A stretch of 64,000 nt of DNA from positions 1,657,001-1,721,000 of the forward strand of contig WPIO01000019.1 of the NCBI GenBank assembly GCA_009760855.2, given 5' to 3'. Each line of letters opens with the position of its first letter. Position 1 is the stretch's first letter. Made by a program: the position numbers and the translations under genes. The notes beneath the pieces are model-generated. The model was not told the DNA's origin, ran no database searches, and saw only the letters and a list, made by a program, of their open reading frames with translations. Positions 11,546-26,028 of the stretch are shown piece after piece. Origin of the DNA: Cristatella mucedo (taxonomy: Eukaryota; Bryozoa; Phylactolaemata; Cristatellidae).

Positions 11546-26028
<14,483 letters not shown>

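Follow-up and report, generated by a model that had tools for sequence, protein, structure and literature searches.

An 8-nucleotide probable coding microexon in a PITPNC1/RdgB-beta-like gene of the bryozoan Cristatella mucedo

The gene and its product

The analysed stretch of Cristatella mucedo DNA, here called the window, comprises 64,000 nt of contig WPIO01000019.1. Its minus strand carries a complete PITPNC1/RdgB-beta-like gene (26028-11546) with ten coding exons, nine GT-AG introns and a predicted product of 286 aa. The gene model was obtained by tblastn with a human PITPNC1 sequence, combined with inspection of splice sites. It includes as exon 4 a segment of 8 nt, AGTACACG. The features are as follows.

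25981..26028, minus: coding exon 1, 48 nt, ends in phase 0, 16 aa (tblastn, splice boundaries)
24343..24491, minus: coding exon 2, 149 nt, ends in phase 2 (tblastn, splice boundaries)
20974..21062, minus: coding exon 3, 89 nt, phase 2 to 1, ...WNFYPYTKT + G (tblastn, splice boundaries)
20132..20973, minus: intron 3, 842 nt, absent from the class I-like paralogues, with a high-copy repeat inside
20124..20131, minus: proposed coding exon 4, the microexon AGTACACG, 8 nt
17076..20123, minus: intron 4, 3048 nt, with a counterpart of equal position and phase in the class I-like paralogues
17004..17075, minus: coding exon 5, 72 nt, phase 0 to 0, 24 aa (tblastn, splice boundaries)
16776..16874, minus: coding exon 6, 99 nt, containing the premature TGA (16860) that is met on skipping of the microexon
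16135..16194, minus: coding exon 7, 60 nt (tblastn, splice boundaries)
15550..15645, minus: coding exon 8, 96 nt (tblastn, splice boundaries)
14988..15051, minus: coding exon 9, 64 nt (tblastn, splice boundaries)
11546..11721, minus: coding part of exon 10 with the stop codon (tblastn, splice boundaries)

Exons 1, 7, 8 and 10, for which the tblastn rows stayed inside the exons, showed 60-81% identity to the human sequence. The remaining exon rows showed 34-47% identity and ran on into intron. The product matched the Pfam family IP_trans (PF02121) at 370 bits; the match spans positions 1-244 of the 246 in the profile, corresponding to a complete domain. When the fragment encoded by exons 3-5 was compared with solved structures, chains of PITP-alpha and PITP-beta were found, representing 5 distinct sequences at E <=0.01. 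The stop codon ends at position 11546 and closes a short protein of 286 aa without a long C-terminal region. Such a region is a feature of PITPNM and is absent from the short PITPNC1/RdgB-beta proteins (class IIB PITP). Separate class I-like genes (contig C199) and an RdgB-alpha-like gene (contig C111) are present in the same genome; these names were given by eye.

Weak tblastn matches to the human PITPNC1 were also obtained for KAWNSLP... peptides at 4303-4383, 13669-13589 and 43544-43576; we take these peptides to resemble the ends of retrotransposon reverse-transcriptase reading frames. Outside the gene, 9 of the 40 stop-to-stop frames listed for the window were compared with Pfam, and none matched a family at E <=0.01. 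Long AG/GA dinucleotide arrays (CT/TC on the minus strand) are located in introns of the gene at 18696-18848, 21447-21559, 15408-15489 and 23719-23824.

Sequence and reading frame of the microexon

AGTACACG corresponds to minus-strand positions 20131-20124 and is flanked directly by TCAG on the 5' side and GTGAGT on the 3' side. With 8 nt between AG and GT it lies far below 30 nt for an internal exon. Exon 3 ends in phase 1 and exon 5 begins in phase 0. Insertion of AGTACACG completes a Glu codon, followed by codons for Tyr and Thr, and results in the continuous frame PYTKT-EYT-CSFIPKF; if it is omitted, the frame is lost. A preliminary description of this DNA, made from the letters of the sequence, had placed an 8-nt exon at 20124..20131 with these phases and flanking AG and GT, and had stated that the intervening segment codes for exactly Glu-Tyr-Thr. 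Both statements agree with the sequence. Glu-Tyr-Thr is presumably the PITPNC1 residue triplet at this junction, as it matches the human PITPNC1 sequence. AGTACACG is thus a segment that is needed for the frame and whose residues fit the family, as expected of a coding microexon.

The effect of the three residues on the IP_trans score was compared for several variants of the product. Removal of EYT lowered the score from 370 for the intact protein to 356.9, replacement of EYT by GGG gave 360.9, and the frameshifted product of skipping scored 153.1 bits. Within the IP_trans domain, the Glu-Tyr-Thr supplied by AGTACACG would directly follow the EKAWN...PYT stretch.

Splice sites and flanking signals

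Splice sites were scored with a simple consensus matrix. The donor of the microexon scored 10.1, the highest of the nine in the gene, compared to 8.6 for the donor of the upstream exon. Its acceptor scored -5.3, the lowest of the nine, the other eight ranging from 3.6 to 13.3. The splice sites had been called perfect in the preliminary description, which holds for the donor and fails for the acceptor. Pyrimidines occupy 6 of the 16 positions from -20 to -5 of the acceptor. A pyrimidine-rich stretch, TCTTTTGTATGTCTGCC, is located further upstream with no AG in between, and a possible branch point, CTCAT, is found 47 nt from the AG. The AG-free zone before the acceptor measures 49 nt and is the second longest of nine (13 to 53), which is not exceptional.

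The expectation that such a short exon would usually need special splicing enhancers found no specific support. UGC motifs, the sole enhancer type tested, showed no enrichment upstream of the microexon over the intron background, in which 23% of 50-nt windows contain at least three and 25% of 80-nt windows at least four. A Pfam search of this genome for SRRM_C gave no match, but the control was likewise silent in 14 of 14 genomes, so that this negative is uninformative.

The unequal strength of the two sites suggests an order of splicing. Binding of U1 at the strong GTGAGT donor, together with the good acceptor of exon 5, would most likely lead to removal of the downstream intron before the upstream one. 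This would produce a composite exon of 80 nt consisting of the microexon and exon 5, and the weak acceptor of this composite exon would then be joined to exon 3.

About 320 bases of intron 3 (20846-20527) belong to a high-copy repeat that is present in at least 39 other places at 91-93% identity, as counted among the 40 of 8427 candidates that were scored. The repeat stops short of both splice sites. For the microexon region itself, the window was the only match among the 40 scored of 8427 candidates, nearly all of these 40 being one repeat.

Paralogues and origin of the microexon

A search of the 572-Mb assembly (688 contigs) with the IP_trans profile gave 16 matching pieces, with 3 on the contig of the window, 5 on C111 and 8 on C199. 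The COX1 gene of this genome stays open over 517 residues with genetic codes 4, 5 and 9, each of which reads TGA as Trp; judged by eye against known COX1 proteins, code 5 gave the best fit, which points to an invertebrate and perhaps a spiralian. In the RdgB-alpha-like gene on C111, TRTIYRCPFVEKFKI is read through one uninterrupted exon with the residues TRTIYRCPF, and three residues are therefore expected between T and C. The corresponding exons form a single exon in this gene, the introns of the region having been lost or never present.

The two class I-like genes on C199 (C199:1215053-1221629 and C199:1238335-1250502) are neighbours on one strand with equal exon limits in the part examined. 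In both of them exon 3 measures 100 nt, runs from phase 2 to phase 0 and ends after VIT; it is followed by an exon of 78 nt, whose last residues are SEN and which ends in phase 0. Exon 3 and the microexon of the PITPNC1-like gene together measure 97 nt, one codon less than the 100-nt exon of the paralogues, with equal phases at both ends. Exon 5 likewise ends after SEN in phase 0. Based on these equal limits and phases, the donor of the microexon corresponds to the shared exon end, and the intron located 8 nt upstream is the only additional one. The coding reading given in the preliminary description was thus strengthened: frame, length and family residues support it together, and the end of a paralogue exon coincides with the 3' edge of the microexon.

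Exon limits and phases of the class I-like genes match on both sides of the region. They differ from the PITPNC1-like gene in having VIT instead of EYT and in lacking the intron 8 nt before the shared donor and hence the microexon. The microexon probably arose, or remained, when one extra phase-1 intron separated the 3' end of an older exon from the rest. On this reading the donor is that of the exon end common to the class I-like PITP genes, whereas the acceptor belongs to the extra intron. Gain of intron 3 in the lineage of the PITPNC1-like gene is a simpler reading than its loss in the others. Viral and prokaryotic contig collections gave 1 and 9 pattern matches, respectively, none of them coding for a relative.

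Evaluation of alternative explanations

Exons 3 and 5 could in principle be linked by another short exon or by shifted splice sites, with the match to Glu-Tyr-Thr due to chance. The interval between the two exons contains 487 segments of 2-149 nt that are bounded by AG and GT, keep the frame and have no stop, counting those no closer than 40 nt to its ends; 14 of them are 8 nt long. Candidates were scored by BLOSUM62 summed over the RdgB-alpha-like paralogue (C111), the class I-like paralogue and PITP-alpha of 1t27. EYT was second of the 487 with 332, and VFV, encoded by TATTTGTC, was slightly ahead with 336. Against single references EYT was level second behind DFR (C111 paralogue), second behind VFV (1t27) and outside the best three (class I-like paralogue). 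Similarity to the paralogues therefore favours three inserted residues and does not by itself single out EYT. By combined splice score EYT was 38th of 487. The splice scores of TATTTGTC were, however, very poor (acceptor -9.0, donor -6.8), and in a Pfam ranking of 10 fragments, EYT and nine picked from the 487, EYT was best with 71.7, compared to 67.3 for VFV and at most 67.3 for all the rest. When an internal exon was dispensed with and splice sites were shifted by up to about 200 nt from the edges of the two exons, 35 alternatives were obtained, the best of which scored 287 compared to 332 for EYT. The intron was also simulated 3000 times with a first-order Markov model; the pattern AG-[AGTAYACN]-GT, encoding Glu-Tyr-Thr, occurred 2 times, or 0.0007 per intron. 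The looser patterns xYT and xYx had chance expectations of 0.011 and 0.27 per simulated intron. On both strands of the 64-kb window the AG-Glu-Tyr-Thr-GT pattern had a single match, at 20131-20124. A chance match or a wrong exon is considered extremely unlikely.

A related alternative is the use of the same donor with an upstream AG, giving an exon of 59 nt (20182-20124) that adds 17 residues before Glu-Tyr-Thr. Its acceptor scored -1.9 compared to -5.3, the frame is kept without a stop, and the combined splice score was 12th of 487. Set against this, the Pfam score dropped to 54.7 bits in two separate stretches, no such insertion was seen by eye in the C111 paralogue or the two class I-like paralogues, and a stop-free run of 17 codons is common by chance. 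It is very unlikely that this is the exon in use. The 59-nt exon might occur as an alternative isoform.

The 8-nt exon could also be a regulated on/off switch, included in a cell-type-dependent manner, where skipping would bring in a premature stop, trigger nonsense-mediated decay and thereby control the amount of protein. In the skip product, translation would end in exon 6 at a TGA whose first base is 16860; the last coding junction follows 305 nt later, and a decay-coupled switch is therefore possible. The combination of a weak acceptor and a strong donor resembles human SRRM4-dependent microexons that are spliced downstream intron first (PMC10250204), and 283 of 411 Drosophila exon-microexon-exon cases (68.9%) are alternative according to PMC8042270. 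On the other hand, UGC motifs upstream were at background density, and coding-region microexons of Drosophila are over-represented as multiples of three (71.7%), unlike an exon of 8 nt (same study). Drosophila eMIC exons have weak donors (PMC8797185), unlike AGTACACG. A regulated switch is regarded as unlikely; that such a switch, in the form of a frame-breaking 8-nt exon, was created by insertion of a new intron 8 nt ahead of an ancient donor appears quite doubtful. If the switch existed, cells failing to include the 8 nt would make no RdgB-beta protein and the skipped transcript would decay.

Since a transcript without AGTACACG loses the frame and soon meets a stop, inclusion of AGTACACG in the mRNA is probably constitutive. 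Taken together, AGTACACG is with high confidence (probability about 0.93) a real coding exon of 8 nt, probably used constitutively, in an invertebrate gene for a phosphatidylinositol transfer protein of the PITPNC1/RdgB-beta type. The gene model would be corrected accordingly, as a gene finder that overlooks this exon would put the lipid-transfer domain out of frame or join it wrongly. Furthermore, the comparison of paralogues suggests a simple route to a microexon, an extra intron near an existing donor, and the exon limits can be checked in related genomes.

Comparison with known microexons

A literature search found no paper pairing PITPNC1 with a microexon or with the intron position. Passages of PMC6092267, from the literature on PITPNC1/RdgBbeta splice variants, make no mention of this exon, and no rdgB gene is named in the main text of the Drosophila microexon study (PMC8042270).

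Within the human SRRM4-dependent group, microexons whose downstream intron is removed first have weaker acceptors and tend to be shorter, the latter not significantly; strong microexon donors were also noted (PMC10250204). The matrix scores found here (-5.3 and 10.1) fit this human pattern of a weak acceptor and a strong donor. In contrast to the SRRM4/eMIC neural microexons described in PMC10250204 and PMC8797185, no UGC enrichment is seen near the AGTACACG acceptor. In constitutive microexons of Drosophila the donor is stronger than the upstream donor, and a similar pattern is reported for 3' sites (PMC8042270). The donor scores of 10.1 and 8.6 follow this relation, whereas the acceptor, strengthened in Drosophila, is weak here (-5.3).

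In plants, conserved coding microexons are missed in annotation and have been modelled from flanking exons and phase; among the conserved clusters, which range from 1 to 15 nt, is one of 8 nt and phase 1 in RECQ3, and where a neighbouring intron has been lost the microexon becomes part of a longer exon (PMC8831610). The remark in the preliminary description that gene finders miss such exons agrees with this experience in plants. AGTACACG resembles the plant microexons in being very short with a fixed phase, and some of these are likewise located within protein domains. The plant cases concern other genes and are backed by RNA-seq and conservation across several species, whereas AGTACACG is predicted from genomic sequence. 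According to PMC4674806, the smallest constitutive exon known before that study was 6 nt, and a single-nucleotide exon is reported there in Arabidopsis APC11. Constitutive exons of less than 10 nt thus exist, and AGTACACG sets no size record. Very short exons are an already-known kind, prone to being missed by gene finders, of which AGTACACG is one more case.
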